Shown one piece after another: positions 12,791 through 41,672 of a stretch of DNA of 64,000 bases; the first letter of the stretch is position 1; each line of letters begins with the position of its first letter. The stretch covers positions 496,001-560,000 of the forward strand of contig NZ_JAHXBG010000003.1 of the NCBI RefSeq assembly GCF_020103725.1, in the 5' to 3' direction. Source of the DNA: Hyalangium gracile (lineage in GTDB: Bacteria > Myxococcota > Myxococcia > Myxococcales > Myxococcaceae). The translations under genes and the position numbers were made by a program. Under the pieces are notes generated by a model, which did no database searches, was not told the DNA's origin, and saw only the letters and a list, made by a program, of their open reading frames with translations.

Positions 12791-12829
12791 GGAAACGAGC
12801 CTCCTGCGAAGCATGTAAGGGGTGAGACT

Positions 12830-14158: not shown

Positions 14159-14274
14159 GACAACTCCTTTCGCGGCTGGTGCACTAGCAAGACCCGATCC
14201 GCTCACTGGCCGACGCTTGCTGTCAGGAAATTCAGGGATTTGCACAGAAGGGCCCCGGGAGGGGCTGCTGGGTG

Positions 14275-14328: not shown

Positions 14329-15930
14329 TCAGGTGCCGAGGATGAAGAGGTCCGGGTTGAAGCTGCGCGGGCCCGCGGGGTTCTTCCCGCTGGTGTCGAA
14401 GTAGCGCAGCTTGTCGTCCACGTAGAGCGAGCCGACGCCCGCGCCGCGCGGATCATTGTCCCGGCCCACCTGCAGGTAGAAGTAGATGTCGTTCTGGCCG
14501 GCGGGGATCGTCACCCCTGGGAAGAGCGGGTGGGGGCGATCCAGCGTCTGGACGACGGAGATGTTCTCCGCGCGCACCTTGTAGCAGGCCCGCCCATCCG
14601 GCGTGGGCGTGGACAGCTCGAGCGAGTAGCCGTAGCCGCGCTCGGCCTGGAAGGCCAGGTCGGCGCTGAGCGGATCACCCCGGACGATGGCCTCGTCGAT
14701 GTTGGGCACGCCGTCGCGGTCGGTGTCGAGGAGATCCTCGGGGACGAGCGGGTTGGTGCGCCCCAGGGCCTCCACCATGTCGGGCAGGCCGTCGGCGTCG
14801 GTGTCGCCCATGCAGGGGTCGGTGCCGAGCACGCGCTCCTCGCAGGTGTTGAGCCGGTCGCCGTCGTCATCCAGCGAGACGTTGCAGCCGTTGATGACGT
14901 TGAGGGCCAGGGGATCCAGGCCCATGCGCAGCTCGATGCCGTCCATGAGGCCGTCGCCGTCGGTGTCCGCCTGGCGGGGGTCCAGGCTCAGGTCCGCCTC
15001 GTCCCTGTCGGCCAGGCCATCCCCGTCGCTGTCGGCGAGCAGCTCGCCGTCGCGCACCTGGACGTTGCGGTTGAAGGCGAGGAAGCGCTTGAGGACGAGC
15101 GACGTCTGGAGCGAGGAGTAGTTGAGGTTGGAGAGGGCATCGCGCAGGCCCTCGGGGTCGGTCTCGATGGCCTCGGTGCCGCCGGCGTTGGCGATGGCGG
15201 CCACCTGGTTCCGGGTGTTGGTGTCCGGCACGGAGCGCACGTAGATGGGCTGGACGACGACTTCACCCGCGCCGAACTGCTGGACCAGGTTCTTGAGCTC
15301 GCCGGTGACGGCCGTCAGCTCGCACTCGCTGCACGCCTGGGAGCCGGAGACGGGGGTGAGGGCGGAGCAGCGCGCGTCGATGCCCACATTGAAGGCGGGG
15401 TTGTCGCAGCTGAGGTCGGCGTTGGTGACGACGAGGACGACCATGTAACGGGTGCGGCCGACGGCGCCGCGGCAGGACGTCTGCATGTCGCCGGAGAGGA
15501 TGCTCTTGGAGAGGCGCAGGGCGGAGCGGATGCTCATGGGCCCCGTCTCCTGATAGCTGGCGTAGCGGGCCAGGGCGGACTGGAAGGTGGAGGCGTCCGC
15601 GAAGCTGCCCTGCAGGCCGGTGGCCACGGTGTGGTAGGCCACGAGGGAGAACGAGATGAAGGGGCCGGAGAAGCGGCTGCTGAGGGTGCCGAGCGCGTCG
15701 GTGGAGTAGCCCACCAGCTCGGAGGGAACGCCCTGCCCGCCGGCGAGGGCGAAGACGACCTTCACGGGGAAGGCATCTCCGCCGGCCAGGGGGATGCATA
15801 CCTCGCCCGTGTAGTCCGCGCGGTCCTTGCCGCTGGGCCCGCGGCCATCGAGCGCATAGAGGCCCGCGTCGGTGCAGGAGAGCAGCAGCAGGGGGACCAG
15901 GATCCAGATCAGCTTCGAGGAGGAGCGCAT
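14329..15930 (-). CDS. Degenerate VWA lipoprotein with acidic repeats (MIDAS lost)
   Basis: A 533-aa precursor, third paralogue of the VWA set. Lipobox LLSC (Cys19). The segment that aligns with the MIDAS strand of its paralogues (FPVKVVLVIDQSGS) reads FPVKVVFALAGGQG, so the metal-binding Asp and both Ser are gone. Acidic TSP3/EF-like repeats (DSDGDGLADR, DTDGDGLMDG, DTDADGLPDM, DTDRDGVPNI) and the YGYS...CYKVRA C-terminal module are kept. It is the first gene of the minus-strand set and starts at an ATG preceded by a GGGGGG tract; a longer frame to 16047 has no signal peptide at its start. It may be a structural partner rather than a metal-dependent adhesin. Confidence 0.8.
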   Translation of the reverse strand: MRSSSKLIWILVPLLLLSCTDAGLYALDGRGPSGKDRADYTGEVCIPLAGGDAFPVKVVFALAGGQGVPSELVGYSTDALGTLSSRFSGPFISFSLVAYHTVATGLQGSFADASTFQSALARYASYQETGPMSIRSALRLSKSILSGDMQTSCRGAVGRTRYMVVLVVTNADLSCDNPAFNVGIDARCSALTPVSGSQACSECELTAVTGELKNLVQQFGAGEVVVQPIYVRSVPDTNTRNQVAAIANAGGTEAIETDPEGLRDALSNLNYSSLQTSLVLKRFLAFNRNVQVRDGELLADSDGDGLADRDEADLSLDPRQADTDGDGLMDGIELRMGLDPLALNVINGCNVSLDDDGDRLNTCEERVLGTDPCMGDTDADGLPDMVEALGRTNPLVPEDLLDTDRDGVPNIDEAIVRGDPLSADLAFQAERGYGYSLELSTPTPDGRACYKVRAENISVVQTLDRPHPLFPGVTIPAGQNDIYFYLQVGRDNDPRGAGVGSLYVDDKLRYFDTSGKNPAGPRSFNPDLFILGT

Positions 15931-16073
15931 CAGCCCCCCATTGTAGAGCGCAGGGGCCGGGAGGGTTTCAAGCGATCCGACCGGAAGTGCAGCCGGATCC
16001 GCCCCGGGGTCTCGCCTTGGAGGAATCTTCCACCGGGCGCGGTCCATCCCCTGCCGGTTAATGTGCGTCGCCC

Positions 16074-21926: not shown

Positions 21927-24236
21927 CTACAGCGTCAGGAGGAACGCGAGCAGGTCATCCCGCTCCTCGGGCGTCAGGGCCTGGGCGTTTCCGTGCTGAG
22001 GCCCGGCGCTCTCGAGCACCGCCCTCAGCGGGAAGCGCGTGCCCACGACGAGCCGATCCCCCTTCACCTCGTAGCCCGCCGCAGCGCTCGTGAGCATGGG
22101 CCACACGTCCCAGGAGCCGATGAGCGCGGGCGGCGCCGCCCCCGGCACCAGCTCCTGCTGATCCAGCCGCAGCGGCAGCGCGATGGGCGTGCCCACCTCC
22201 AGGTACTTGCCTCGCGTGGCGGGCTCCTGATCCAGCGTGTAGAGCGGCGCCGGGTGACAGGCCACGCACCCGCCCTTGCCCTCGAACAGCGCCCGCCCCT
22301 CCGCGGGCCGGCCCGCGCGCCCGTCGGGCAGCGAGAGCGTCTCCGGCGGCGCCCCGTCCTCGCCCCTGAAGGGGTTGGGCAGCGTGGGCACCAGCGCGGA
22401 GTAGAGCGTCAGCGCCTCCACCTCCGTGTCCGTGAGCTGCGGGTTCTGGTAGCGGTTGCGGTTGCCCACCGTCTTGATCGTCTCCGCGATGCTGTGCGTG
22501 CTCGCCGGCGTGAAGTACGGCGGCGTATCCCGGCTGCCGCGCACCGTGGTGGAGCGGTAGATGCGCATCGGCTTCGTCTTCTCGAAGAAGACGCCGCCCG
22601 TGTGGCCCTCCAGGTGGCACGCATCGCAGCTCATCGCCGTGCGCCCCATGTCCGCGTAGTAGAGCACCTGCCCCAGCCGGCGCTTGGCCTGCGTGCGCAT
22701 CTCCGTCACCGGGAGCTGGCGCACCACGCGCGCCTGGCCCGACTTCGCCTGCGTCACGTCCACCACCGCCACCGTCCCGGTGTGCCGGTTGAGCACGTAG
22801 AGGGTGCGCCCATCCGGCGCCAGCGCCAGGCAGCGCGGCCCCGAGTGCAGCTCCACCCCCGCCCGGCCCTCCTTGCCGTAGTCCTCGTCCGGCCGCGCCC
22901 GGGGCGTCTTCTCCGGCAGCGGCATGGGCAGTTCCTGGAGCAGCGCCTTGCGCGCCCCCTCCTCGCTCTCCCCCAGCTTCCGCGCGTCCACCACCCGCAC
23001 GAGCCCCAGCCCGATGTCCGCCGCGTAGAGCAGCCCCGTGGCCTCGTCCAGCGCCAGCCCCTCCGTCACTCCCGCGCCAAAGCCCCGGTGACGCACCACC
23101 GTGCCGCGCTTCGGATCCAACACCGCCACGCCGCCGTTGGCGCTCACCTCCATGCGCTCGGCGTTGGGCCCCACGTTCGGCCCCAGGCTGGCGACGAAGA
23201 GGCGCCCCAGCCGCTCGCTGGCCACCATCCCGCGCGTCGCCTTGCCTCCCATCACTTGCTTCGAGAAGCGCTCCGTCCCGCCTCCGACGATGGGCACCCC
23301 AGGCCCCGGCACCAGCGTCGACACGAGCCCCCCATCCGACTGGCGCAGCACCTCCACCTGCCCCGTCTGCAGGCTGCCCACCGCGAGCAGCCCCTCGAGC
23401 GCCGCGAGCTGCCGCGGGTTCGGATCCACCGCCGTCGCCCACCGCTCCTTCCCATCCACCAGGGACAGCGCGCGCACCGTGTCCCGCACCTGCTCCGCGA
23501 CGAACGCCTCCTCGCCCTTCGCATCCACCACCAGCCCCATGGCCCCCACCGGCGCCGGCAGCACGCGCGGCGCACTCCCCGGAGCGTCCAGCGCATACAG
23601 GCGCAGCTCCGGGCTGAACCGGTGCGCCACCGCGAGCCAGGACTGCCCAGCTACATCCTTATATGTAGCGATAGCGCTCGGCCCATCCGCCGTGGCCAGC
23701 GCCGTCACCTGCCCCGAGCCCACGTCCAGCGCGAACACCGTGTCCGTCGGCGGCGAGGCGATGAAGGCCGTCCGGCCATCCGGCGACAGCGCCAGCGCGA
23801 ACAGATCCGGAAACGCCGCGTCGTTCACGACATCCAGCCGAGCCTCCCCCTCTGGAGCCGGCTTCCCCGCGGGGGCGATCAGCCGCGCCGTCACGCTCGC
23901 GATCGGCAGCTCCGGCGGGAGCGAGACATCCGCCGGCAGCCGCGCATACCCGTGTCGCGCGTCCACCACCTTCAGCGGCAGCTCGCGAGACACCGGAGGG
24001 CCCAGCGCCAGGCGCATGCCCTGCTCCAGCCCCTCGCCGTACACCGACAGCGGCTCCGAGGTCTGATTGCTCGTCAGCCGCGGCCCCACCGACAACAGCC
24101 TCGCGGCGGGCGCGGCCGGAGCCTGCGCATCGGGGCGGGCCGCCGGCGGCTCACCCGAGCCAGAGCGCGCGACGAGCACGGCCACCACGCCCAGGCACAG
24201 CACCAGCGCCACCACCACGGGAAGGGTGCGTTTCAT
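21927..24236 (-). CDS. Beta-propeller di-haem cytochrome c protein
   Basis: A 769-aa exported protein with one N-terminal membrane/signal segment. Residues 120-510 have repeating propeller blades of the YncE type (ALSPDGRTAFIAS, LALAPDGRTLYVLN). The C-terminal 250 residues are a cytochrome-c-peroxidase-like module with two haem-binding motifs, CDACH near residue 535 and CVACH near residue 655, and the conserved LTDTEVEALTLYSALV helix. It probably acts in periplasmic electron transfer or peroxide reduction. The ATG at 24236 starts the signal; a longer frame to 24749 overlaps the divergent operon. It is divergent from the Glt/Nfs-like operon. Confidence 0.8.
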   Translation of the reverse strand: MKRTLPVVVALVLCLGVVAVLVARSGSGEPPAARPDAQAPAAPAARLLSVGPRLTSNQTSEPLSVYGEGLEQGMRLALGPPVSRELPLKVVDARHGYARLPADVSLPPELPIASVTARLIAPAGKPAPEGEARLDVVNDAAFPDLFALALSPDGRTAFIASPPTDTVFALDVGSGQVTALATADGPSAIATYKDVAGQSWLAVAHRFSPELRLYALDAPGSAPRVLPAPVGAMGLVVDAKGEEAFVAEQVRDTVRALSLVDGKERWATAVDPNPRQLAALEGLLAVGSLQTGQVEVLRQSDGGLVSTLVPGPGVPIVGGGTERFSKQVMGGKATRGMVASERLGRLFVASLGPNVGPNAERMEVSANGGVAVLDPKRGTVVRHRGFGAGVTEGLALDEATGLLYAADIGLGLVRVVDARKLGESEEGARKALLQELPMPLPEKTPRARPDEDYGKEGRAGVELHSGPRCLALAPDGRTLYVLNRHTGTVAVVDVTQAKSGQARVVRQLPVTEMRTQAKRRLGQVLYYADMGRTAMSCDACHLEGHTGGVFFEKTKPMRIYRSTTVRGSRDTPPYFTPASTHSIAETIKTVGNRNRYQNPQLTDTEVEALTLYSALVPTLPNPFRGEDGAPPETLSLPDGRAGRPAEGRALFEGKGGCVACHPAPLYTLDQEPATRGKYLEVGTPIALPLRLDQQELVPGAAPPALIGSWDVWPMLTSAAAGYEVKGDRLVVGTRFPLRAVLESAGPQHGNAQALTPEERDDLLAFLLTL

Positions 24237-24441: not shown

Positions 24442-24858
24442 ATGCGACGCCTTCTCCTCGGCCCTCTCGTCGCCAGCCTCCTTGGCCTTGCTCCTCTTCC
24501 GATGCTCAGCTCGGAGGCATGGGCGCAGCGCGGGCGTGCGTCTCGCGCTGCGTCGAAGAGCAAGTCCAAGAAGCCCGCGCCCTCCAAGTCCGCCCCCAAG
24601 CCCGAGCCTCGCTCGGAGCCGGCGGCCACCACCCCGGATCCCGTCACCGGCGAGGCCTCGTCCACCGCCTCCGCCTCGACGCCTCCGCCCAGCCGCGGCC
24701 CCTCGCGCATCGACTTCGATGACCGCCTGATCCAGGGCCAGACGAACAAGTCCGGCGCCGTCTATCTCTACGACCGCAAGGAGCTCAAGACGCGGTCGAT
24801 GATCAAGGAGCGGGACAGCTTCCGCTCCGAAACCCTCTCCACCGTCTACGACCAGTAG
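24442..24858 (+). CDS. Small exported protein, first gene of Glt/Nfs-like operon
   Basis: A 138-aa protein with signal peptide (cleavage near AWAQ), a Lys/Ser/Pro/Ala-rich middle and a conserved-looking C-terminus: SRIDFDDRLIQGQTNKSG, YLYDRKELKTRSMI and TVYDQ. I recall this block next to AgmX/PglI-type genes in myxobacteria, where it may correspond to the small periplasmic GltF/NfsF component, but I cannot prove the match. It begins the operon, 35 bp upstream of the FHA/TonB-like gene, and is likely periplasmic. Confidence 0.75.
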   Translation: MRRLLLGPLVASLLGLAPLPMLSSEAWAQRGRASRAASKSKSKKPAPSKSAPKPEPRSEPAATTPDPVTGEASSTASASTPPPSRGPSRIDFDDRLIQGQTNKSGAVYLYDRKELKTRSMIKERDSFRSETLSTVYDQ

Positions 24859-24893
24859 GGCTCGGCCCACCGCCCTCGAAAGGGAGTGTCCAC

Positions 24894-27245
24894 GTGAGCG
24901 CTCAGCCCTCCGTCCTCCAGGTCGTCATCCTCCGCGACGGGCTGCTCGTCGGCACGGAGGTCTTCGTCCCTGGCACCTACGCCATCGGCTCGGATCCGTC
25001 CTCGGATCTGCGGCTGGATGACGCGTCCATCGATTCGCGCCACGCCCTGCTGTACTTCCAGAACGGGCGCTCGGCCATCCAGGACGCCGGCTCCAACGGC
25101 GGCGTCTACGTCAACGGCCACCGCGTCACCGCGTGCGAGATCCGCTCCGTGGACGAGGTGCTCTGCGGCCCCTTCGTGCTGAAGACGCGCGTGCTCTCGC
25201 AGAAGCCCGCCGAGAAGCCGCCCCCGTCCCCCGAGGTGGCCGCCCTGCTCGGTGGCGCCTCGCCGCCCGCCGCGCCGCCGCCCCAGGCCGCCGTCCATCC
25301 GCTCCGGCCTCCTCCGGCGGCGACGATGCCCGCGCGCCCTGCTCCGCAGCCGGCCCCGGGCCCGACGCCCGGCGAGCTGATGGCCTCCACGGTCGCCACC
25401 GGCTACGCGCCCCAGAACGCCCCCCGAGGCCCGGCGCCGCAGGCCGCCGTCGTCCCCATGCCGCAGCCCGCCGCGCAGCGAGGCCCTCCGGCCGCCGCCT
25501 CGCGCGGAGGCCCCGCCGTGGCCCACGCCCCACGCCCCGCGCCCGCGGTGATGCCCGTGCAGTCCGCGCCGGCCGCGCCCGTGCCCGCCAACACGGTGCC
25601 CTCCGCGCGCCGCCGCGCCACCCAGGACGTGATGCCGGCGGCGGACGCAGGCCCCGCCATCCAGCTGGCGGATGATCTCTTCGGAGACCTGCTGCCCGAG
25701 CCGGCGCAGCCGCAGGCGGAGGAGCCCCTCTTCACCGACGCCGCGCCGCAGGCTCCGGTGGCTCGACCCGCGCCGCGCCAGGCGCCGGCCCCGGCCCCTG
25801 CACCGGCACCCATCGCCCGAGCGGCCTCGCACGGCTCACACGCCCCCAGCGAGCTGCCGCCGGATCCGCCCCGCCCCACGCACGCCCCCAGCCTGGGGCC
25901 CGGCAAGGGCAAGACGCAGCTCTACCTGGAGCTGTACTGGGGCGGAATCCGCCGCGAGGCCCGCAGCTTCCAGGGCGGCAAGGAGCCCCTGAAGACCACC
26001 GGCGAAGAGAAGACCGCCATGCCGCTGTGGGGCTTCTCGCTGCCCGAGGAGGGCTTCACGCTCGCCGAGTCCCTCAACGGCGCCTACCGCCTCTACGTGC
26101 CCCCCGGCTCCACGGTGGAGAAGGCCAACTCCGGCGGCCGCTACACGCCGGTGCAGCTCACCGCGCTCGAGGCCGACGGCACGCGCCGCTTCATCACCCT
26201 GCGTGACGGCAGCGCCGCCCGCCTGAGCCAGGGACAGATGTCGCTGGTGGCCTACGCGGCGCCCAAGCCCGAGAAGGTGTGGGTCAACCCGCTCTCGGGC
26301 CTGCCGTGGCTGGCGCTGGCGTGCTTCTTCCTCTTCGGTGGTGCCTTCGGCGCCTTCGTCGTGCTCAGGCCGCAGTCGCCCGAGTCCCCGGACTTCCAGC
26401 AGAAGAACCTCCCGCCCGTCGCCCTGCGCCTGCTGGCGCCGGAGCCGAAGAAGAAGGAGGAGGCCAAGAAGAAGCTGGAGGCCATCAAGGAGAAGGCCAA
26501 GACGGCCGAGAAGAAGCCGGAGAAGGCCGTCGAGAAGCCCAAGGTGGTGGAGAAGACGCCGCCTCCCAAGCAGAAGGAGGTGGCCCCGCCGCCTCCGCCC
26601 GAGTCCAAGGCCCTCAAGGCGCTGGCCAAGCTGTCGGCCGCCGGCCCGGCCACCAATGACGTGCTGGCCGCGGTGGACAAGCTGGGCAGCGGCCCGGGCA
26701 GCAAGAACGTGAAGACATCCAACTACAAGCTGTCGGGCCTCATCGGCAAGGCGCCCATCGCCAACGCGGGCCTGGGCACCTTCGGCCTGGGCGGCGGCGG
26801 CAAGGGCGGCGGCGCCACGCTCGGCGCGGAGCTGCTGCGCGGCAAGGGCGGCGGCGGCATCGGAGCGCTCGGCGCGGGCGGCGTGGGCAAGGGCCAGGTG
26901 GGCGGCGTGGTGACGCGCGCCACCTCGCGCAGCGTCGCCGCGACGCAGGGCAGCATCGACCGCGAGGCCGTGGCCAAGGTCATCAACAGCCACCTGCAGG
27001 AGGTGTACGCCTGCTACGAGCGCGCCCTGCTCAAGGACACGGGCCTGGCCGGCAAGGTGGTGCTCGAGTGGACGATCGGCGGCAACGGGAGCGTGGTGGC
27101 AGCCAAGACCAAGTCCTCCACCCTGCGCAACGGCACCGTCGAGGCCTGTATCCTCAGCAGCCTGAAGAAGTGGACCTTCCCCGCTCCCAAGGGCGGCGTC
27201 GTCATCATCAGCTACCCGTTCATCTTCAACTCGGTCGGCTACTGA
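24894..27245 (+). CDS. FHA-domain AgmX/PglI-type (GltG/NfsG-like) inner-membrane protein
   Basis: A 783-aa protein. Residues 25-95 are an FHA phosphopeptide-binding domain (IGSDPSSDLRLDD, SRHALLY, NGGVYVNG). A long Pro/Ala linker follows, then a conserved segment at about 340-460, one transmembrane helix near 468-490, and a Lys/Glu/Pro-rich periplasmic stalk. A Gly-rich stretch then leads to a C-terminal AgmX/PglI TonB-like domain (VINSHLQEVYACYERALL, LKKWTFPAPKGG). This is the architecture of the GltG/NfsG/PglI proteins that link inner-membrane motors to outer-membrane parts in gliding and spore-coat assembly. GTG start with AGGGAG upstream. Confidence 0.85.
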   Translation: MSAQPSVLQVVILRDGLLVGTEVFVPGTYAIGSDPSSDLRLDDASIDSRHALLYFQNGRSAIQDAGSNGGVYVNGHRVTACEIRSVDEVLCGPFVLKTRVLSQKPAEKPPPSPEVAALLGGASPPAAPPPQAAVHPLRPPPAATMPARPAPQPAPGPTPGELMASTVATGYAPQNAPRGPAPQAAVVPMPQPAAQRGPPAAASRGGPAVAHAPRPAPAVMPVQSAPAAPVPANTVPSARRRATQDVMPAADAGPAIQLADDLFGDLLPEPAQPQAEEPLFTDAAPQAPVARPAPRQAPAPAPAPAPIARAASHGSHAPSELPPDPPRPTHAPSLGPGKGKTQLYLELYWGGIRREARSFQGGKEPLKTTGEEKTAMPLWGFSLPEEGFTLAESLNGAYRLYVPPGSTVEKANSGGRYTPVQLTALEADGTRRFITLRDGSAARLSQGQMSLVAYAAPKPEKVWVNPLSGLPWLALACFFLFGGAFGAFVVLRPQSPESPDFQQKNLPPVALRLLAPEPKKKEEAKKKLEAIKEKAKTAEKKPEKAVEKPKVVEKTPPPKQKEVAPPPPPESKALKALAKLSAAGPATNDVLAAVDKLGSGPGSKNVKTSNYKLSGLIGKAPIANAGLGTFGLGGGGKGGGATLGAELLRGKGGGGIGALGAGGVGKGQVGGVVTRATSRSVAATQGSIDREAVAKVINSHLQEVYACYERALLKDTGLAGKVVLEWTIGGNGSVVAAKTKSSTLRNGTVEACILSSLKKWTFPAPKGGVVIISYPFIFNSVGY

Positions 27246-27264
27246 GGCGGATTCCTCCGCCTCA
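27243..27264 (+). promoter_or_regulatory. Intra-operon hairpin including a stop codon
   Basis: TGAGGCGGA (27243-27251) and TCCGCCTCA (27256-27264) form a perfect 9-bp stem with a TTCC loop. The stem contains the TGA of the FHA/AgmX-like gene and sits 30 bp before the next start. With no T-run it is more likely to protect the mRNA end or reduce downstream expression than to stop transcription fully. Confidence 0.55.
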
Positions 27265-27294
27265 GGCCGTCCTCACGACCGGACAGTCCCCATC

Positions 27295-27930
27295 GTGCGA
27301 TACGCCCTGCTTCTCCTTCTGTCCCTGGCTCCCGGCCTCGCGCTCGCGCAGGCCGAGGCGCTCGAGAACCCTGGCACCACCTCGGCCGTGCAGGATCGGC
27401 TGTACCAGCTCAACCACGAGCTGATGCTCGGCCTCGGCGTGCTGCCGGCCGACGCCTTCTACAAGGGCTACTACGCCGGGCTCAGCTACACCTACCACTT
27501 CAGCGATCACTTCGCGTGGCAGGTGGGCCGGGGCGGCTACAGCTACAACGTGAAGACGAGCCTGCGCCGCCAGCTCGAGCGCGACTTCGGCGTGGCCCCC
27601 ACCGACACCTCCTTCGAGGACGAGGTGCAGTGGTTCGTGGGCTCGGACGTGATGTGGAGCCCCTTCTACGGCAAGACGTCCATCCTCAACCAGAAGGTGC
27701 TGCACTTCGAGGCCTTCCTGCTGGGTGGCGCCACCGTCTTCAAGCTCAACCGGGAGGGCGGCTTCCGCCCCGGCGCCAACGTGGGCCTGGGCCTGCGCGT
27801 CTTCAAGAGCAACCACATCTCCTTCCGGCTGGACGTGACGAACAACGTCGTCTTCGCCGGCGCCTCCCGCATCATCAACATCCCCTCGATCCAGCTCGCG
27901 ACCGCACTCAACTTCGGCGCCACGGAATGA
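27295..27930 (+). CDS. Outer-membrane beta-barrel protein (GltH/NfsH-like)
   Basis: A 211-aa protein with signal peptide (LAPGLALAQA). Alternating hydrophobic strands such as YYAGLSYTYHFSDHFAWQVG and ANVGLGLRVFKSNHISFRLDVTN suggest a small eight-strand barrel. It follows the AgmX/PglI-type gene, as gltH and nfsH follow gltG and nfsG. It probably forms the outer-membrane end of the complex. The start is a GTG without a clear ribosome-binding site; the stop overlaps the next ATG. Confidence 0.78.
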   Translation: MRYALLLLLSLAPGLALAQAEALENPGTTSAVQDRLYQLNHELMLGLGVLPADAFYKGYYAGLSYTYHFSDHFAWQVGRGGYSYNVKTSLRRQLERDFGVAPTDTSFEDEVQWFVGSDVMWSPFYGKTSILNQKVLHFEAFLLGGATVFKLNREGGFRPGANVGLGLRVFKSNHISFRLDVTNNVVFAGASRIINIPSIQLATALNFGATE

Positions 27931-29546
27931 TGCCCCGCAAACTGCTCGCCGCGCTCAGCAGCGCCGCGCTCCTCGCCCTCCCTGTCACCTCCCGGGCTGG
28001 CGCTCCTCCCGCCACGCCCGCGCCGGCCCCCGCCGCGCCCGCCGCGGCTCCGGCCACGGCTCCGGCCAACGCCACCAATGCGCCCGCGCCCGCCGCGGAC
28101 GCCAGCAAGCCCGCGCCCGCCGAGGGCCAGGCCGCCGCTCCCAAGCCGGAGGAGGCTCCCCCTCCCCCGCCGCCGGAGAAGGTGGACCCCAAGCTCTTCG
28201 ACGAGGCCCTGGCGGACTACTTCGACGGCGATCCCCGCGCCGCCGCCGGGCCGCTGTACGCCTGGCTGTCGGCCGCGCCGAAGACGGACGACAACTACGC
28301 CTGGGGGCAGTACTTCCTGGCGCGCAGCCTCATCGATCTCGGCCTCACCCACGCGGGCGCCGTGTACCTGGCCCGCATCGCCCGTGAGCGCACCAACCCC
28401 AACGTGCTGCCCCGCGCGCTGGAGCTGCTCAAGTCGCTGACGGACAAGCCGCACGACGAGGTGATGATCGACGAGCAGGTGTTCGCCGCGCTGGACCTGG
28501 GCTTCCTGGAGCAGGAGGCCGGCGCCTACGTGCACTACCAGCAGGGCCTGGTGGACCTGCGCGTGGGCAACGAGCGCTGGGCCAACACCCACTTCTCCAA
28601 GCTGGACGAGGGCAGCGCCGAGGCCAGCCGCGCGAAGTTCGTCCTGCTCGTCACCCGCCTGAAGACAGTGAAGGAGCCCTCGGAGGAGCTGGTCAACGAC
28701 TTCCTGGCGCTCTCCAAGGACGAGAAGCTCACCCGCGAGGCGCGCAACGAGGCGGCGCTCGCGGTGGCCCGCCTGCGCTACGAGCGCAAGGACTACAAGG
28801 GCGCGCTGGAGGCCTACTCCCTGGTGCAGCTGCCCGAGCTGGATCCGGGCCGCGCCACGCTCTACCTGGAGGAGGCGTGGACGCGCTACAAGATGGGCGA
28901 GCTGCGCGCCGCGCTGGGCATCCTCACCACGCTGGACGCGCCCTCCTTCCGCGACGAGTTCCTCCCGGACAAGTACCTGCTGCGCGCCCTCATCTTCCGG
29001 GACCTGTGCCACTACCTGCCCGCCAAGCGCTCCGCCAAGGAGCTGACGCGGCGCTTCGCGGACTCGCTGGACGCCATCGCCGAGCGGGATGACCTGACGC
29101 AGGACCTGCGCCTGCGCCGGGCCGCCGAGTCCCACGGCTCCACCCGCCGCGCCGCGCGCTTCAAGGGGCTGCTGGAGCTGGAGTCCGAGCGCCTGGGCCG
29201 CTTCGCCGGCAGCTTCGGAGACCGGCTCCAGTCGCACCTGACGAAGCTCTACGCCCTGTCCCTGGGCGAGGCCGAGCGCGTCTACCAGGCGCGGCTCACC
29301 GAGGCCGTGCGCCAGGAGGCCGACACGCTGCTGCGCGCCGCCGAGCAGGTCCGCCTCATGGAGTACGAGGTGGGCCTCAAGCTCTACGAGCGCGTGAAGA
29401 AGGGCTCGAAGATCGTGCTGCCGCCCGAGGAGGAGCTGCTCAAGCCCTCCCAGGTCGCCTTCCGGTTCGAGGGCGAGTACTGGAACGACGAGCTGAAGTC
29501 CTACCGGGTCCGCATCGACAGTCGTTGCATCGAGGAAAACCAATGA
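27927..29546 (+). CDS. Exported helical-repeat (TPR-like) protein, 539 aa
   Basis: Signal peptide (cleavage near TSRAG), an Ala/Pro-rich linker to residue 80, then alpha-helical repeats of TPR type to the end (for example YFLARSLIDLGLTHAGAVYLARIA and AALAVARLRYERKDYKGALEAY). It is coupled to the genes on both sides by ATGA overlaps, at 27927 and 29543. In Glt/Nfs systems periplasmic TPR proteins bridge the inner- and outer-membrane parts. I cannot assign it to one named component. Confidence 0.75.
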   Translation: MMPRKLLAALSSAALLALPVTSRAGAPPATPAPAPAAPAAAPATAPANATNAPAPAADASKPAPAEGQAAAPKPEEAPPPPPPEKVDPKLFDEALADYFDGDPRAAAGPLYAWLSAAPKTDDNYAWGQYFLARSLIDLGLTHAGAVYLARIARERTNPNVLPRALELLKSLTDKPHDEVMIDEQVFAALDLGFLEQEAGAYVHYQQGLVDLRVGNERWANTHFSKLDEGSAEASRAKFVLLVTRLKTVKEPSEELVNDFLALSKDEKLTREARNEAALAVARLRYERKDYKGALEAYSLVQLPELDPGRATLYLEEAWTRYKMGELRAALGILTTLDAPSFRDEFLPDKYLLRALIFRDLCHYLPAKRSAKELTRRFADSLDAIAERDDLTQDLRLRRAAESHGSTRRAARFKGLLELESERLGRFAGSFGDRLQSHLTKLYALSLGEAERVYQARLTEAVRQEADTLLRAAEQVRLMEYEVGLKLYERVKKGSKIVLPPEEELLKPSQVAFRFEGEYWNDELKSYRVRIDSRCIEENQ

Positions 29547-32500
29547 CCGGGCAGTTGACGGGGATCATCACCGCGGCGCTGCTGGCCGCGAGCTCCGCCG
29601 GGCCTCAGCGCCTGGACCGGAACCTCAACCCCATCGTCTCCAAGGCGAAGGAGCGCGAGGAGCTCATCACCAAGCTCAAGCGGGACATCTTCAAGGTGGA
29701 CCGCGCCATCGGCGAGACGGAGAAGCTCATCTCCAAGAGCCGCAACGCGCCCTACCTGCCGGACCTGCAGTTCCGGCTGGCCGAGCTCTACGTCGAGAAG
29801 AGCCGCTACGTGTACTACCTGCAGGCCGAGCAGCGGCCGGAGGGGGCCTCGGGCGCCATCGTCTCTCCGGAGACGCGGCTGATGAAGAACAAGGCGGTGC
29901 AGCTCTACCTGCGCCTGCTGCGCGAGTACCCGGACTTCCACGACGGCGACAAGGTGACGTTCTACCTGGCGCACGAGCAGCGCGAGCTGGGCACCTTCGA
30001 CGAGATGCTCAAGACGCTGGGGGACCTCATCCGCAAGTACCCCACCAGCCCGCTGCGGCTGGAGGCCGAGCAGATCATCGGCGACTACCACTTCGACAAG
30101 GCGGACCTGGTGGAGGCGGAGAAGCACTACACCGCCATCCTCGCCCAGCCCCCGTCGCCGGTGCATGACCTGGCCCGCTACAAGATGGGCTGGATCCGGG
30201 TGAACCAGGCCAAGCACGCCGAGGCCGTGGTCTTCTTCGAGGCCGCCGCCGCCAGCGAGCCGCTGCCGGGCGTGGACGCCAAGAAGGCGCTCAACGTCAA
30301 GCGCGAGGCGCTGCTGGACCTGGTCTACAGCTACACCGAGGCCAAGCCGGCCAAGGGCGCGCTCAACTACTTCGAGAAGCTGAGCGACAGCCGCGCCACG
30401 TTCGCGCTGGCGCTGGACAAGCTGGGCAACCGCTACTTCATCAAGCAGCAGTACGAGTGGGCCATCCCCGCGCTGCGCAAGCTGATGGAGATCCAGTTCG
30501 ACCCGGAGCTGGACCTGGAGCGCGGCCAGAAGCTCTATGACGCGCTGAAGGCCTCCAAGGGCAAGGTGATGCCGGAGCCGCAGGACATCCGCTTCCTGGT
30601 GCGCGCCGCGGTGCAGAGCAAGACGGACCCCGAGCTGGACGGCACCGAGCGCAAGAAGCAGCTCGCGGAGCTGGAGGAGATGTCGCGCGACCTCTCCACC
30701 CAGCTGCACCTGGCCGCCCAGAAGAAGAACGACAAGGCGATGTTCATCACCGCGGCCACCGCCTACCGCGAGTACCTGAGCCTGTTCCGCCCCGACCAGT
30801 ACGTGCGGCCCATCATGAAGAACCGCGCGGACGCGCTCTTCGAGGCGGGCAGCTTCCCCGAGGCCGGGCGCCAGTTCGAGGAGCTGGCCCGCTACGAGGA
30901 GAAGGCGAAGCAGCGGGACGAGAAGGCCATCGACGCCGCCATGTACGGCGCCCTGCTGTCCCACTTCTCCACCGTGAAGCCGGAGGAAGCCGCCAAGCGC
31001 ACCACCTTCGAGGTGGCGGACGCGCGCCAGGCCCTCAAGGTGCTGGGCTCCAACTACGTCACGCGCTTCCCCCAGAGCCCCAACGTGCTCGAGGTGAAGT
31101 TCAACATCGCCCGCGCCTACTACGAGGACGGCGACTACCCGAAGGCCTCCGAGCTCTTCACCGCCTTCGCCCTGGCCCACCCGCAGCACAAGGACGCCGC
31201 CGTCGCCGGCAACCTCGCGCTCGACAGCCTGCGGCAGATCAACGACTTCAAGGGCCTGGAGGCCACGGGCAAGAAGTTCCTCGGCACCGCCCTGCCCGCG
31301 AAGTTCCAGGACGACGTGAAGAAGATCCTCGCCCAGAGCAAGGCCGAGGCGCTGGATGAGCTGGCCCTCAAGAGCGCCGAGGAGACGGGCGACGTCATCA
31401 CCGGCCTGCTCAAGGTGGCCGACGAGAACAAGAACTCGGAGATCGGCGAGAAGGCCCTCTACGGCGCCTTCACCGCCGCGCGCGAGAAGCGGGATTTGAC
31501 CAACGCGAGGGACCTCGGCAACCGGCTGATGAACGAGTACCCCAAGAGCCAGTACCTCTCGGACGTGCTGCTGACGCTGGGCCGGTACTCGGCGGAGGCC
31601 GGCTCGTTCGGCGAGGCGGCCGAGTGGTTCGACAAGGTGGGCCAGAAGCTCGGCAGCGACGTGGCCGGCCTGGACGGCTACCTGTCCGCCGCCAAGCTGC
31701 GCATGGCCATGGGTGACTACAAGGAGGCGGCCAAGAGCCTGGAGACGGCCTCCGCCAACGCCGGCGCTCGCAAGGGCGAGGTGCTGGTGCTGCTGGCCGA
31801 GGCCCACCTCAAGCAGAAGGACTACGCCGCCGCCCGCCGCGCCGCGGAGAGCGCGCTGGCCCTGGACAAGACGAGCACCGGCGCCGCCGCCGTCATCGCC
31901 GAGGTGCAGGCCACCACCGCGCCGAACGAGCCGCCCGACAAGCTCATCTCCACCCTCACCACCGCGGTGCAGGGCCCCAACGGGCAGACGGAGGAGGCCG
32001 CCAAGGGCCTGTGGTTCCTGGGAGAGATCCTCTACCGCGGCTACAAGGGCCTGGCGGCCGACAAGGTGGAGGAGAAGGTCGCCGCGCTGCAGGGCATGGA
32101 GGGCATCTACACGCAGGCCGCCTCGCTGGGCTACCCGGAGTGGGCGGTGGCCTCGCTGTGGAAGCTGGGCATGGCGTACTCGCACCTGGCGGACGTGGTG
32201 GACGCGACGCCGGCTCCGGCGGGCGCCTCCGCGGCCGACGTGAAGGCCTTCCAGCAGGCGGTGAAGGAGCAGGTGGCGCCGCTGCGTCAGCGCGCGGACG
32301 AGGCCTTCAAGGCATGCCTGGCCCGCGCCGAGCAGCTCGACGTGTTCAGCGCCGCGGTGGTGGGCTGCCGCTCGCGCACCGACACGGCGTCACTGCCGGT
32401 GCCCAACCCGGGCGCGCCCACGCGCAGCGCCTCGCTGGAGGAGGTGCGCAAGAAGGCCGAGGCCACGCTCACCGCCGAGGCGCTCGAGGCGCTGGGCATG

Positions 32501-32818
32501 GCGTACCTGGAGAACCGGCAGTACGGCCTGGCGCAGCTCACCTTCGGCCGCGTGACGGAGCTGCAGGACACGCGCGCCTCGGCGCACAGCGCGCTGGGCT
32601 GGGCGCTGCTCAACCAGGGTGACGCGATGAACGCGCGCGCCGCCTACGCCAAGGCGCTCGAGGCGGACCCGACGTACGGCAAGGCCCGCCTGAACCTGGC
32701 CGCCCTGCGCTGCCGCTTCGGCGACACCGAGGGCGCCAAGCGCGAGCTGTCCGTCCTCAAGGACATGGGCTCGCTGGGTGGACCGGACGTGGACGCGGGG
32801 TGGAAGGCGTGCAAGTGA
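29543..32818 (+). CDS. Large TPR protein, AgmU/GltD/NfsD-like
   Basis: A 1091-aa protein with a short signal-like N-terminus, then TPR/Sel1-like helical repeats over almost its whole length (for example FRLAELYVEKSRYVYYL, RLEAEQIIGDYHFDKADLVE, NIARAYYEDGDYPKASELFTAFA, YLENRQYGLAQLTFGRVTEL). Size, repeat content and location agree with the periplasmic scaffold AgmU/GltD of M. xanthus gliding, or its spore-coat paralogue NfsD. The ATG at 29543 overlaps the preceding stop, with GAGG nine bases upstream. A TTG at 29525 in frame is unlikely. Confidence 0.75.
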   Translation: MTGQLTGIITAALLAASSAGPQRLDRNLNPIVSKAKEREELITKLKRDIFKVDRAIGETEKLISKSRNAPYLPDLQFRLAELYVEKSRYVYYLQAEQRPEGASGAIVSPETRLMKNKAVQLYLRLLREYPDFHDGDKVTFYLAHEQRELGTFDEMLKTLGDLIRKYPTSPLRLEAEQIIGDYHFDKADLVEAEKHYTAILAQPPSPVHDLARYKMGWIRVNQAKHAEAVVFFEAAAASEPLPGVDAKKALNVKREALLDLVYSYTEAKPAKGALNYFEKLSDSRATFALALDKLGNRYFIKQQYEWAIPALRKLMEIQFDPELDLERGQKLYDALKASKGKVMPEPQDIRFLVRAAVQSKTDPELDGTERKKQLAELEEMSRDLSTQLHLAAQKKNDKAMFITAATAYREYLSLFRPDQYVRPIMKNRADALFEAGSFPEAGRQFEELARYEEKAKQRDEKAIDAAMYGALLSHFSTVKPEEAAKRTTFEVADARQALKVLGSNYVTRFPQSPNVLEVKFNIARAYYEDGDYPKASELFTAFALAHPQHKDAAVAGNLALDSLRQINDFKGLEATGKKFLGTALPAKFQDDVKKILAQSKAEALDELALKSAEETGDVITGLLKVADENKNSEIGEKALYGAFTAAREKRDLTNARDLGNRLMNEYPKSQYLSDVLLTLGRYSAEAGSFGEAAEWFDKVGQKLGSDVAGLDGYLSAAKLRMAMGDYKEAAKSLETASANAGARKGEVLVLLAEAHLKQKDYAAARRAAESALALDKTSTGAAAVIAEVQATTAPNEPPDKLISTLTTAVQGPNGQTEEAAKGLWFLGEILYRGYKGLAADKVEEKVAALQGMEGIYTQAASLGYPEWAVASLWKLGMAYSHLADVVDATPAPAGASAADVKAFQQAVKEQVAPLRQRADEAFKACLARAEQLDVFSAAVVGCRSRTDTASLPVPNPGAPTRSASLEEVRKKAEATLTAEALEALGMAYLENRQYGLAQLTFGRVTELQDTRASAHSALGWALLNQGDAMNARAAYAKALEADPTYGKARLNLAALRCRFGDTEGAKRELSVLKDMGSLGGPDVDAGWKACK

Positions 32819-33297
32819 GCCCGCGCATCCTCCCGGCCCTCGCACTGGCGGGCCTGCTCACCGGCTGCGGTCAGGGACCGCACCTGGAGGGCAGCGTCAC
32901 GCCGCTGCTGGATCTGCACTACGAGAAGGCGGAGGCCCTGGCCGACGAGGACGAGGCCTCCGTGCGCTTCCTCACCGCGCAGGGCTCCGGCGAGAACACC
33001 ATCCTCAAGGTCGCGGCGCGGCTGGACAGGCTCCAGCTCACGCCCGGCACTCCCATCGATCTGGCCGAGCTGCTCGGCGAGGAAGAGGACGCTCCGCAGC
33101 GCGGCACGGTGAGCCGCAGCGTGCTGGACGAGCCCGCGCGCGACTTCCCGCGCATCCTCCGGGGCACCCTCACCTTCGACGGGGCCCTCACCCCCGCCGC
33201 GAAGGTGCCGGGCAGCTTCCACGTCACTTTCGTCAACGGCACCGACGTCTACTCCGGCCGCACCATCTTCGGCCGTTTCGAGGCGACTGTTCCATGA
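32815..33297 (+). CDS. Small lipoprotein in the Glt/Nfs-like operon
   Basis: A 160-aa precursor with lipobox LTGC (Cys18). The mature part is beta-rich (ILKVAARLDRLQL, GTLTFDGALTPAAKVPGSFHVTFVNGT), consistent with a single sandwich domain. The GTG start overlaps the stop of the preceding gene (GTGA). No named family is recognised. Its position between the TPR scaffold and a coiled-coil lipoprotein suggests an outer-membrane inner-leaflet part of the same complex. Confidence 0.7.
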   Translation: MSPRILPALALAGLLTGCGQGPHLEGSVTPLLDLHYEKAEALADEDEASVRFLTAQGSGENTILKVAARLDRLQLTPGTPIDLAELLGEEEDAPQRGTVSRSVLDEPARDFPRILRGTLTFDGALTPAAKVPGSFHVTFVNGTDVYSGRTIFGRFEATVP

Positions 33298-33929
33298 AGC
33301 GCATCCTCCTGCTCACCCTTCCCCTGCTCGCCGCGTGTGGCCCGCGCTACGGCATGCGCGTGCCGGACGACATGGTGAAGAAGCTGCCCTACGAGACGCG
33401 CATCGAGCTGCTCGAGGCGGAGAACGACCTGGCGCTGGCCATCGACAAGGTGGACCAGGCCAGCAGTGAAATCCTGCGCGCCCGCGACAACATCCGCCGC
33501 GCCCGCTCCCGCGCCAGGGCCGCCGAGGACGAGCTGGATCGCGCCGAGGACAACGTCTCCAAGGAGGTGGCGCAGCTCACCATCGACGAGGCGGAAGCGC
33601 GCGTGGAGTACCTGCGCTCGCGCCAGCGCCTCAACGTGGCCCTGCTGGAGGTAGAGGAGCTGGCGCTGCGCTGCGCCTTCGCCCGCTTCGAGCTGGCGCG
33701 CGTGACGGCCGCTCGCAAGTCCAAGGTGGAGGGCAGCGAGGAGCTGGACCCCAAGGAGTTCGAGGCCCAGGTGGCCGAGTGCGACGCGGCGGTGAAGGAG
33801 GAGCGGGCCGACCTCGGCTCGGACACCGCCGAAGAGAAGGCCGCGCGTGAGGCGTGGGAGGCGAAGAAGGCGGCCCTGGCCAAGAAGACCTTCGACGCGA
33901 GAACCAGTCCCTACGTGGAGAACCTGTGA
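33294..33929 (+). CDS. Coiled-coil lipoprotein in the Glt/Nfs-like operon
   Basis: A 211-aa precursor with lipobox LAAC (Cys15). Residues 40-200 are almost continuous charged helix with heptads (ELLEAENDLALAIDKVDQAS, AEDELDRAEDNVSKEVAQL), so a long periplasmic coiled coil is expected. The start overlaps the preceding stop (ATGA) and the stop overlaps the next start (TGATG), so translation is coupled. A lipid-anchored rod would suit a spacer or tether in the periplasm. Confidence 0.75.
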   Translation: MKRILLLTLPLLAACGPRYGMRVPDDMVKKLPYETRIELLEAENDLALAIDKVDQASSEILRARDNIRRARSRARAAEDELDRAEDNVSKEVAQLTIDEAEARVEYLRSRQRLNVALLEVEELALRCAFARFELARVTAARKSKVEGSEELDPKEFEAQVAECDAAVKEERADLGSDTAEEKAAREAWEAKKAALAKKTFDARTSPYVENL

Positions 33930-35854
33930 TGACTCGAGCCGGTGTCCTCGTCCTCCAGCTCCTGACGGCGCAGGCTCCCGCGCCGGCCACCCCCGAGGCC
34001 GCGCCCGCGGCCGCCACCGCCGAGGCCGCCCCGCTGCCTCCGGACGTGGACGCCCTCTACAAGCTGGGCGTGGCCTTCCTGAACCAGGGCCAGCCGAAGA
34101 AGGCCGCTCCGCCGCTGAAGAAGCTGTTGGAGAAGGCCCCCGAGGTCATCGCCGCGCGCGTGGCGCTGGCCCGGGCGCTGCGGCTGTCCGGCGAGACGGA
34201 GGAGGCGCGCACGCTGCTGGACGGCTCCATCGCCATGTACCCCGAGGAGTCCACCCTGCGCGCCGAGCGCGGCCTGCTGGCGCGGGTGATGGACGAGTCC
34301 GACGTGGCCATCAGCCAGTACTCGGTGGCCGTGGAGCTCTCCCCCAAGGACGCGGAGCTCCAGTTCAACCTGGGCGAGGCGCTCCATCGCGCGGGCCGCA
34401 CGGACGACGCCATCAGCGCCTACGAGGACGCGCTGAAGCTGGACGCGAAGCTCACCTCGGCCCGCATCAACCTGGCCAAGGCCCAGGCCGAGAAGGGGCT
34501 GATGGGCGAGGCCCGGGAGACGCTCAAGGAAGCGCTCCAGGTGGCGCCCAACGACGCCGAGGCCCACTACAACATGGGCGTGCTGATGATGCGCGCCAAT
34601 GACCTGGTAGGGGCCATGTCCGAGTACCAGAAGGCCCTGGAGCTCAACCCCAAGCACGCCATGGCGCACAACAACGTGGGCGTGGTGTACGACGGGCTGG
34701 GCCAGCACCAGAAGGCGACCGAGGCCTTCAAGAAGGCCATCAGCGCGGACCCGAAGTACGCGGAGGCGCACTTCAACCTGGGCCTGGCGTACTTCTGGCT
34801 CGGCCAGCAGGTACAGGCGACGAAGGCCTTCGAGAAGGCGCTGGAGCTGGAGCCGCGGCGCTCCAGCGGCCCGTACACGCAGCTGGGCCACCTCTACCTG
34901 CAGCAGGGCAAGAAGGACCGCGCCGTGGAGGCCTTCAAGAAGGCCATCGAGGCGAGCGCGGACGACGGCAAGAAGACCACCGAGGCCTACCAGGGCCTGG
35001 CGCGCGCCTACCTGGCCCAGGGCAAGGTGGAGGACGCCGTGGCCACGCTCAAGAAGGTGGTCGACGACTTCCCCAAGGACGCCAGCGCGCGCGCGGCCTA
35101 CGGCGATGCGCTCAAGGCCAAGGGCGACCTGGACGGCGCCATCACCCAGTACGAGGAGGGCGTGGCGCTCTCGCCGACGACGGAGGCGCGGCTGGCGCTG
35201 GCCAACGCGTATTCGCGCAAGCGCGTGGGCGCCAAGGCCCAGCCCATCCTCGAGGCCATCCTGAAGGACGAGCCGGGCCACCGCGTGGCGAAGCTGGAGC
35301 TGGCGGACCTGTACCTCGCCATGGGCCGCTACGCGGAGGTGGAGCAGCTGCTGCAGGCCAAGGACGGCGAGACGACGGACACCGGCGCGCTGGCGCGGCT
35401 GGGCGTCATGCACTCGCGCATGCAGCGGCCGGACAAGGCGCTGGGCATGCTGGAGCAGGTGGCGAAGCGGGATCCGTCGCAGCTCGACGCGCGCGCGGAG
35501 CTGGGGCAGATCTACCTGCGCGGCGGAGACTCCGAGAAGGCGGTGCGGGTGCTGGGCGACGTGCTGGCCATCGAGCCGCGGCACTCGCTGGCGCTGCTGT
35601 ACACCGGCCAGGCGCTCTACCAGCTGGGCAAGGCGAAGGAGGCCGAGCAGTCCTTCCGGGCGGCGGCCCAGGTGGACCCCCACTTCGCCGAGCCGCACAA
35701 CGCGCTCGGGCAGCTGCTCGAGCAGGCCAGGCGCGTGGACGAGGCGAAGGCGGAGTACGCCAAGGCCGTGGAGCTCCAGGCGAACCACGAGGACGCGAAG
35801 GCGGCCCTCAAGCGGCTGGGCGGCGCGGCGGCCTCGGCGAAGACGACGCCCTGA
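33929..35854 (+). CDS. TPR-array protein, last gene of the Glt/Nfs-like operon
   Basis: A 641-aa protein: short signal-like N-terminus, Ala/Pro/Glu linker to about residue 35, then some sixteen canonical TPRs (for example AEAHYNMGVLMMRANDLVGA, AMAHNNVGVVYDGLGQHQKA, AEAHFNLGLAYFWLGQQVQA). Residues with the W-LG-Y-A-F-A-P spacing are clear. GltE/AglT and NfsE are TPR components of the related systems; this could be the counterpart, though no lipobox is visible. It ends the operon and is followed by a 12-bp-stem hairpin at 35901. Confidence 0.75.
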   Translation: MTRAGVLVLQLLTAQAPAPATPEAAPAAATAEAAPLPPDVDALYKLGVAFLNQGQPKKAAPPLKKLLEKAPEVIAARVALARALRLSGETEEARTLLDGSIAMYPEESTLRAERGLLARVMDESDVAISQYSVAVELSPKDAELQFNLGEALHRAGRTDDAISAYEDALKLDAKLTSARINLAKAQAEKGLMGEARETLKEALQVAPNDAEAHYNMGVLMMRANDLVGAMSEYQKALELNPKHAMAHNNVGVVYDGLGQHQKATEAFKKAISADPKYAEAHFNLGLAYFWLGQQVQATKAFEKALELEPRRSSGPYTQLGHLYLQQGKKDRAVEAFKKAIEASADDGKKTTEAYQGLARAYLAQGKVEDAVATLKKVVDDFPKDASARAAYGDALKAKGDLDGAITQYEEGVALSPTTEARLALANAYSRKRVGAKAQPILEAILKDEPGHRVAKLELADLYLAMGRYAEVEQLLQAKDGETTDTGALARLGVMHSRMQRPDKALGMLEQVAKRDPSQLDARAELGQIYLRGGDSEKAVRVLGDVLAIEPRHSLALLYTGQALYQLGKAKEAEQSFRAAAQVDPHFAEPHNALGQLLEQARRVDEAKAEYAKAVELQANHEDAKAALKRLGGAAASAKTTP

Positions 35855-40344: not shown

Positions 40345-40363
40345 GAGGGGACCTCGATGCGAA

Positions 40364-41554: not shown

Positions 41555-41672
41555 TTTATGAAGTTTTTAACACGACTTCCGGGCTTCAATCCAACGCGCC
41601 CCCTGGGTCCGGATCATCCCCCCCGAGGCGAGCGGGCACCCCATCCTCAGGCCACCTACCCTCGCCTCGCGC

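Follow-up and report, generated by a model that had tools for sequence, protein, structure and literature searches.

A Glt-type trans-envelope operon of Hyalangium gracile corresponding to the G5 cluster, its linkage to Mts cohesion genes and the motors of related clusters

A stretch of 64,000 nucleotides of the Hyalangium gracile genome (contig NZ_JAHXBG010000003.1, positions 496,001 to 560,000; hereafter the window) carries an eight-gene operon related to the gliding (Glt) and spore-coat (Nfs) machines of myxobacteria, which raises the question of what cargo such a complex would serve and which motor would drive it. The answer that we favour, with about even confidence, is that the operon, named G5 here after the cluster of Luciano 2011 (PMC3169522), encodes an ancient Glt-type trans-envelope complex that works with the adjacent Mts adhesins as their platform. 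The existence of an extra Glt/Nfs-like machine is not new, as Luciano 2011 had already catalogued the cluster as one of unknown function. New here are the G5 clade, its presumably lost motor, the pairing of the M2 motor with the G4 cluster and the linkage to mts. Loci, genomes and families carry our working numbers (L, G and f, respectively). The source genome (11.7 Mb in 81 contigs) belongs to family f1, whose named members are Myxococcus, Pyxidicoccus, Corallococcus and Hyalangium species.

The eight open reading frames (ORFs) called in the window occupy positions 24442 to 35854 of the forward strand, exactly as a sequence-only reading of the same DNA had delimited them (Table 1). That reading counted six overlapping or touching junctions; in fact five of the seven are overlaps of 4 bases each, and the first two gaps measure 35 and 49 bases with the starts used here. 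It had also placed F, G and H types before D. By profile comparison g3 is of the A/B type (TIGR04565) and g4 of the GltC type, and the order becomes GltF, GltG, GltA/B-type barrel, GltC, GltD, lipoprotein, lipoprotein and GltE-like tetratricopeptide repeat (TPR) protein. This order is identical in all f1 loci containing the whole cluster, so the arrangement is not due to chance. A 4.4 kb insertion separates g2 and g3 in L114/L032, and a longer gap precedes g5 in L115.

Gene identities were assigned with NCBIfam and Pfam models and with G5 gene profiles. These were for the most part derived from the window plus 26 orthologous loci, with 13 others omitted as partial or duplicate, and were searched against ORFs from 56 loci of paralogues and motors. 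The g1 product scored 29 bits (E 6.5e-7) against NF033764 (CglF, that is, GltF), under the cut-off of 90, and the profile based on it matches GltF in the paralogue loci. The FHA domain of g2 is PF00498; the protein matched NF033760 (GltG) with 213 bits (E 1e-62), under the equivalog cut-off of 650, and NF033768 (AgmX/PglI tail) with 115 bits, above the cut-off of 40. The barrel g3 reached 124 bits against TIGR04565 (OMP_myx_plus, cut-off 60), and its profile matches GltA/GltB and NfsA/NfsB only. An identity of g3 with GltH/CglE was ruled out, since the G5 barrel profile never matches those proteins. The g4 profile matches only GltC and NfsC. The GltF, GltG and GltC scores of g1, g2 and g4 all fall under the NCBIfam equivalog cut-offs, as expected of paralogues. 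The g5 profile matches the GltD of glt, nfs and G4 loci, with a best E of about 1e-60, and Pfam places TPRs in g5 and g8. GltC, GltD and GltG homologues, from the Glt-type core set of GltD, E, G and C, are found together in the operon. The g8 product lacks a lipobox and its best profile matches are GltE proteins, but TPR profiles match everything; the GltE label is a weak, provisional one.

Neither lipoprotein has a confident structural relative. The AlphaFold2 model of g6 is beta, with a predicted local distance difference test (pLDDT) score of 91; the profile search revealed no counterpart in glt, nfs or G4 loci, Foldseek gave no match at E ≤ 0.001, and the best VIA match, LpqH (Z 6.8), lies within the range of common arrangements. 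In two distant genomes a g6 homologue lies in the M3 motor locus, which is separate there (L287, L288). The model of g7 is helical (pLDDT 86), and its profile had zero matches in the 56 paralogue and motor loci. No useful PDB relatives were found for g7 (by sequence search only) or for GltC.

Table 1. Genes of the G5 operon and linked genes in the window.
Feature	Position	Strand	Basis
g1, GltF/CglF-type small exported protein, C-terminal segment strongly conserved	24442..24858	+	alignment, profiles
g2, GltG-type inner-membrane protein: FHA, one transmembrane segment, AgmX/PglI C-terminal domain	24894..27245	+	
g3, GltA/GltB/NfsA/NfsB-type outer-membrane barrel	27295..27930	+	TIGR04565
g4, GltC-type exported TPR-like protein	27927..29546	+	NF033756, E 2e-26
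g5, GltD-type TPR protein	29543..32818	+	profile, GltD tree
g6, beta-rich lipoprotein	32815..33297	+	invariant Cys
g7, helical lipoprotein, G5 marker gene	33294..33929	+	invariant lipobox Cys
g8, exported TPR array, GltE-like	33926..35854	+	position and best paralogue match
Divergent beta-propeller protein, two CxxCH motifs, perhaps mtsA (inferred from gene order)	21927..24236	-	
MtsD-like TSP3 lipoprotein, perhaps mtsB (inferred)	14329..16047	-	NF047639, 83 bits, below cut-off; kept beside G5
MtsC, TSP3 MYXO-CTERM cell-cell cohesion protein	12830..14245	-	NF047638, 610 bits, cut-off 350
MtsD, VWA/TSP3 cell-cell cohesion protein	10826..12814	-	NF047639, 1346 bits, cut-off 800; VWA_2, TSP3
MtsD-like TSP3 lipoprotein, perhaps mtsE (inferred)	9048..10829	-	NF047639, 137 bits, below cut-off; conserved order

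Clusters G1-G5 and the motors M1 and M2 were named in M. xanthus by Luciano 2011, where G4 is MXAN_1922 and G5 is MXAN_1327, both of unknown function and with motile polar mutants (PMC3169522). The source genome additionally carries nfs (L009), gltD-H (L010), gltA/B/C (L155) and a locus adjoining mglA (L012). Therefore, the copies of glt and nfs that the sequence-only reading had asked about do exist elsewhere in this genome, together with G4. The gene mglA is MXAN_1925 (PMC3983030) and adjoins the GltD-paralogue locus L012/L128; thus L012 is G4 and, with nfs and glt accounted for, the window operon is by elimination G5 (MXAN_1327). In addition, the one-contig, collinear genome G023 has the G5 orthologue at 1.57 Mb, G4 at 2.33 Mb and glt at 6.01 Mb, a spacing roughly as those locus tags predict and hence in agreement with MXAN_1327. 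The window operon thus corresponds to the G5 cluster by elimination and position only. A full-text search for MXAN_1327 returned a single further paper, which lists it with a Tad-like pilus. As a separate observation, locus L011 contains an orphan GltG gene (9444-11510, reverse strand) with no other glt genes around it, whose transmembrane segment is nearly identical to that of the glt-locus GltG.

G5 forms a separate, deep clade that occurs in several Myxococcota families; it is not a recent Glt or Nfs copy. The g7 profile matched 104 of the 195 genomes of the phylum, 80 of them among the 96 genomes of f1 and the rest in 13 further families. The fetched loci of f6, f7 and f8 show the operon layout F-G-A-C-D-g6-g7-E; it is F-G-A-A'-C-D-g7-E in f11, F-G-A-C-D-g7-E in f9, f17 and f24, and reduced to A-A'-C-D-g7-E in f27 and f28. 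One weak g7 match, L216, stands without a cluster, while the shortness of several contigs prevented a verdict on them. In the GltD tree (50 rows) all G5 rows lie on one side of a branch with a Shimodaira-Hasegawa-like approximate likelihood ratio test (SH-aLRT) value of 100, and the Glt and G4 rows do likewise; the tree is rooted by midpoint only, and Nfs is represented by a single row on a long branch. There, G5 GltD falls outside the Glt clade and is not grouped with the one NfsD row. This is the AgmU/NfsD-type phylogeny that the sequence-only reading had proposed, and it bears out a separate Glt/Nfs-type machine, while the idea of a third machine gives way to one of the G4/G5 clusters of 2011.

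The cargo, left as unknown by that reading, now has a candidate in the Mts cohesion genes next to the operon. According to PMC11980579 (which prints the name as MstC and cites Zhang 2007), MtsC has roles in cohesion, social motility and development, the mts locus is reported there as important for social motility, and the NCBIfam model names also give the cohesion role of MtsC and MtsD. The propeller gene begins about 20-270 bases from GltF, divergently, in most f1 loci. The four mts genes directly follow it in several other genera, and the window has about 6 kb extra in between. Fourteen f1 loci have 8 kb or more of upstream sequence, and MtsC was found beside G5 in 12 of them, a count that leaves aside 24 f1 loci with shorter upstream flanks. 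The linkage reappears in f11: in five of six loci an MtsC above the curated cut-off is encoded on the same strand immediately before the motor or, in L211, before GltF; the contig of the sixth starts at that place. Moreover, the M3 locus of f9 and f17 (L287, L288) contains MtsD-like lipoproteins and the g6 homologue, an MtsD-like gene lies by GltF in f8 and f24 (L199, L238), and none of the 92 control loci (1.47 Mb) has Mts genes. Beyond the propeller gene and mts the flanks gave no lead, except for a downstream EamA gene in 11 of 39 loci. No open paper on the pairing of G5 with Mts was found in a literature search outside of which Zhang 2007 lies. Two further observations concern these neighbours. 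The propeller protein, with its two CxxCH motifs, would place a haem protein next to an adhesion system. A cassette common to f9 and f17 lies beside the M3 motor (L287, 10038-15250; L288, 4022-9371). It comprises a beta-propeller-like gene, an MtsD-like lipoprotein and the g6 homologue, along with a lipoprotein some 500 amino acids long, and is also related to genes by g6 in L201 and L203.

Given this gene content, GltG would sit in the inner membrane with its FHA domain inside, a transmembrane segment and a periplasmic tail; the GltC, GltD and E-like TPR proteins, GltF and the two lipoproteins would lie between the membranes, and the GltA/B-type barrel in the outer membrane. At the outer membrane G5 would hold, cluster or pull MtsC, MtsD and their relatives and so serve cell cohesion. 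The Glt complex acts likewise on CglB in gliding. The proposed action is modelled on Glt and Nfs, which follow this logic for different cargo while sharing one unlinked motor (PMC3858216). Several points weigh against it. The polar MXAN_1327 mutant showed no appreciable motility change on hard and soft agar (PMC3169522), whereas mts is reported to matter for social motility; that function of Mts thus does not strictly depend on G5. MtsC bears the MYXO-CTERM tag, which means a sorting route of its own (type II secretion and myxosortase handle this class; PMC11980579), and consequently its export does not require G5. Together, these two facts suggest that the role of G5 may be adhesin clustering or force, not display. 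Furthermore, two of the 14 f1 loci (L019 and L030) have no MtsC in the available flank, and linkage is not interaction.

The motile MXAN_1327 mutant (PMC3169522) and the presence of G5 without mts nearby in L030 are also what would be expected if G5 had a separate envelope task and its adjacency to mts reflected shared regulation or an old neighbourhood. We consider this rather unlikely, since MtsC stands just upstream of G5 also in another class of the phylum and MtsD-like genes accompany M3 in f9 and f17, in spite of a neighbourhood that has otherwise changed, and since none of the 92 control loci has Mts genes.

With respect to the motor, the window contains no AglRQS-type genes, and the eight MotA/ExbB homologues of the genome all lie elsewhere. 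This bears out the sequence-only reading for this lineage; in f11 the G5 operon is preceded by a TolQR-type R-Q-S motor of its own. Three motor clades, M1, M2 and M3, were resolved. The source genome has two Agl-type motors, M1 (L121) and M2 (L122), each of one MotA/ExbB and two ExbD-like genes, which in the first tree are split from five other MotA/ExbB proteins of this genome with support 100/100; of its MotA/ExbB proteins (seven of the eight in the tree), only M1 and M2 fall within the Agl-type clade. The f11 motors form M3, which lies inside the G5 locus in all six f11 genomes that have it (L211, rearranged; L235, L237, L290, L291, L292). A profile of the M3 R protein gave M3-type matches (E ≤ 1e-66) in 10 of the 21 genomes probed, and none in the six f1 genomes or the three of f6, f7 and f8 among them. 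Nor was M3 found in G059 (f11), whose G5 contig stops just upstream of GltG. In G161 (f9) an M3-type motor lies about 20 kb from G5. The divergent G182 motor was also placed in the M3 clade (support 98/95); without its row the support is 91/64. M2 had been tried as the motor of G5, because the first f11 motors scored nearer to M2 than to AglR, and was rejected: M2 orthologues lie in G4 operons and co-occur with G4, and the motors linked to G5 are the third clade. Further Agl-type motor triplets occur elsewhere: G189 (L223) has two in tandem, one M2-like and one M3-type, and G192 (L225) has one M2-like triplet.

The distribution of M3 fits a loss on the branch leading to f1, f6, f7 and f8. Ancestral G5 would have had its own TolQR-type motor, M3, and myxobacterial G5 may borrow AglRQS (M1) or M2, or serve as a static scaffold. 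This last option, that G5 and Mts are one system which in this lineage is a motorless scaffold anchoring the Mts lipoproteins and adhesins across the envelope, strikes us as rather unlikely. It would suit the lack of M3 in the nine f1, f6, f7 and f8 genomes probed, the restriction of Agl-type proteins of the source genome to M1 and M2, and, less clearly, the altered transmembrane and juxtamembrane segments of GltG in these families. A transmembrane His or an RFAK-like juxtamembrane motif in GltG was considered as a conceivable sign of motor coupling; the GltG that contacts AglR in two-hybrid tests (PMC3169522, PMC3858216) also lacks the His. The His is present in none of 27 f1 G5 rows, three of 10 distant G5 rows, 14 of 21 GltG4, one of 24 GltG1 and not in the single NfsG (rows L013 and L235 excluded). 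Against the scaffold, both Glt and Nfs use the unlinked AglRQS motor (PMC3858216), so an unlinked motor is normal for this kind of machine, and the GltG of G5 retains its transmembrane segment and tail.

A more specific form of the platform reading, which we put forward tentatively, is that G5 and Mts are a dedicated cell-cell adhesion machine, ancestrally driven by M3, and that myxobacteria lost M3 and now share a motor or have frozen the machine, M2 being likewise the motor of G4. Its cargo would be intercellular TSP3/VWA adhesins, not substrate adhesins or spore-coat glycan, and each of these Glt-type machines would once have had its own motor clade. Finally, that G5 is a recent glt or nfs duplicate acting in gliding or sporulation is very improbable, since, despite the component families in common, the GltD tree sets it outside Glt, Nfs and G4, distant families possess it, and gliding of the mutant is unimpaired (PMC3169522).

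The comparison with known systems places these results. Like the window operon, the G5 cluster of M. xanthus has a GltD homologue that lies apart from glt, nfs and mglA; the main text of Luciano 2011 (PMC3169522) does not give its gene content, the two lipoproteins, a motor clade of its own or the mts linkage. With Glt (GltA-K) the operon has in common the GltA/B, C, D, F and G types, an E-like TPR protein and the layout from inner membrane through periplasm to outer membrane. It differs from Glt in having no match to GltH or GltJ as a whole protein (GltI and GltK were sought only via NCBIfam, where models may be lacking), in two lipoproteins without counterpart and in its separate clade; the Glt motor, M1, is also unlinked. 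Nfs (NfsA-H), like the operon, unites barrels and the C, D, E, F and G types in a single locus, in the order A-B-C-D-E-F-G-H as opposed to F-G-A/B-C-D-g6-g7-E without H, and again in a separate clade. As regards the Glt core complex with AglRQS, the motor genes are not in the window cluster and are present in the f11 relatives. The mts locus (Zhang 2007, cited in PMC11980579) is matched by MtsC and MtsD of the window as full equivalogs. G4 (MXAN_1922) is another paralogous machine of unknown function with GltC, D, E, F and G types, but it lies beside mglA and in six distant genomes its operon carries an M2-type motor, not M3.

These six genomes, of f10, f11, f15 and f28, have an M2-type R-Q-S motor flanked by G4-type genes (L217, L218, L220, L222, L232, L234), namely GltG4, an E-like TPR gene and, where the contig reaches, GltC4 and GltD4. 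The motors of these loci form one clade with M2 (support 97/95), described in 2011 likewise as of unknown function (PMC3169522). With presence defined by a best E ≤ 1e-50 for M2 and ≤ 1e-60 for GltG4, the two were concordant in 123 of 132 genomes (89 of 96 in f1, 23 of 24 in f3 and 11 of 12 in f2). All nine mismatches (G117, G119, G123, G124, G129, G135 and G027 of f1, G109 of f3 and G083 of f2) come from draft assemblies with at least 430 contigs. G4 is thus predicted to be driven by M2, an orphan motor (MXAN_3003-3005 type). The gene mglA adjoins G4 in L012, L128, L129, L132, L133, L136, L140, L144, L218, L220 and L232, distant families included, and this adjacency ties the G4 machine to the polarity GTPase.

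In this way comparative linkage supplies concrete partners: the Mts adhesins and the ancestral M3 for G5, and for M2 the G4 cluster beside mglA. If the platform reading is right, Glt-type machines would be a general class that moves or holds varied surface cargoes, that is, substrate adhesins, spore coat and cell-cell adhesins, and the cohesion of a social bacterium's cells would depend on an envelope process that is active or scaffolded.

Elsewhere in the window, positions 37999-42860 of the reverse strand encode a PAS histidine kinase with a receiver and, after it, two proteins that each begin with a receiver domain and end with a HATPase domain.

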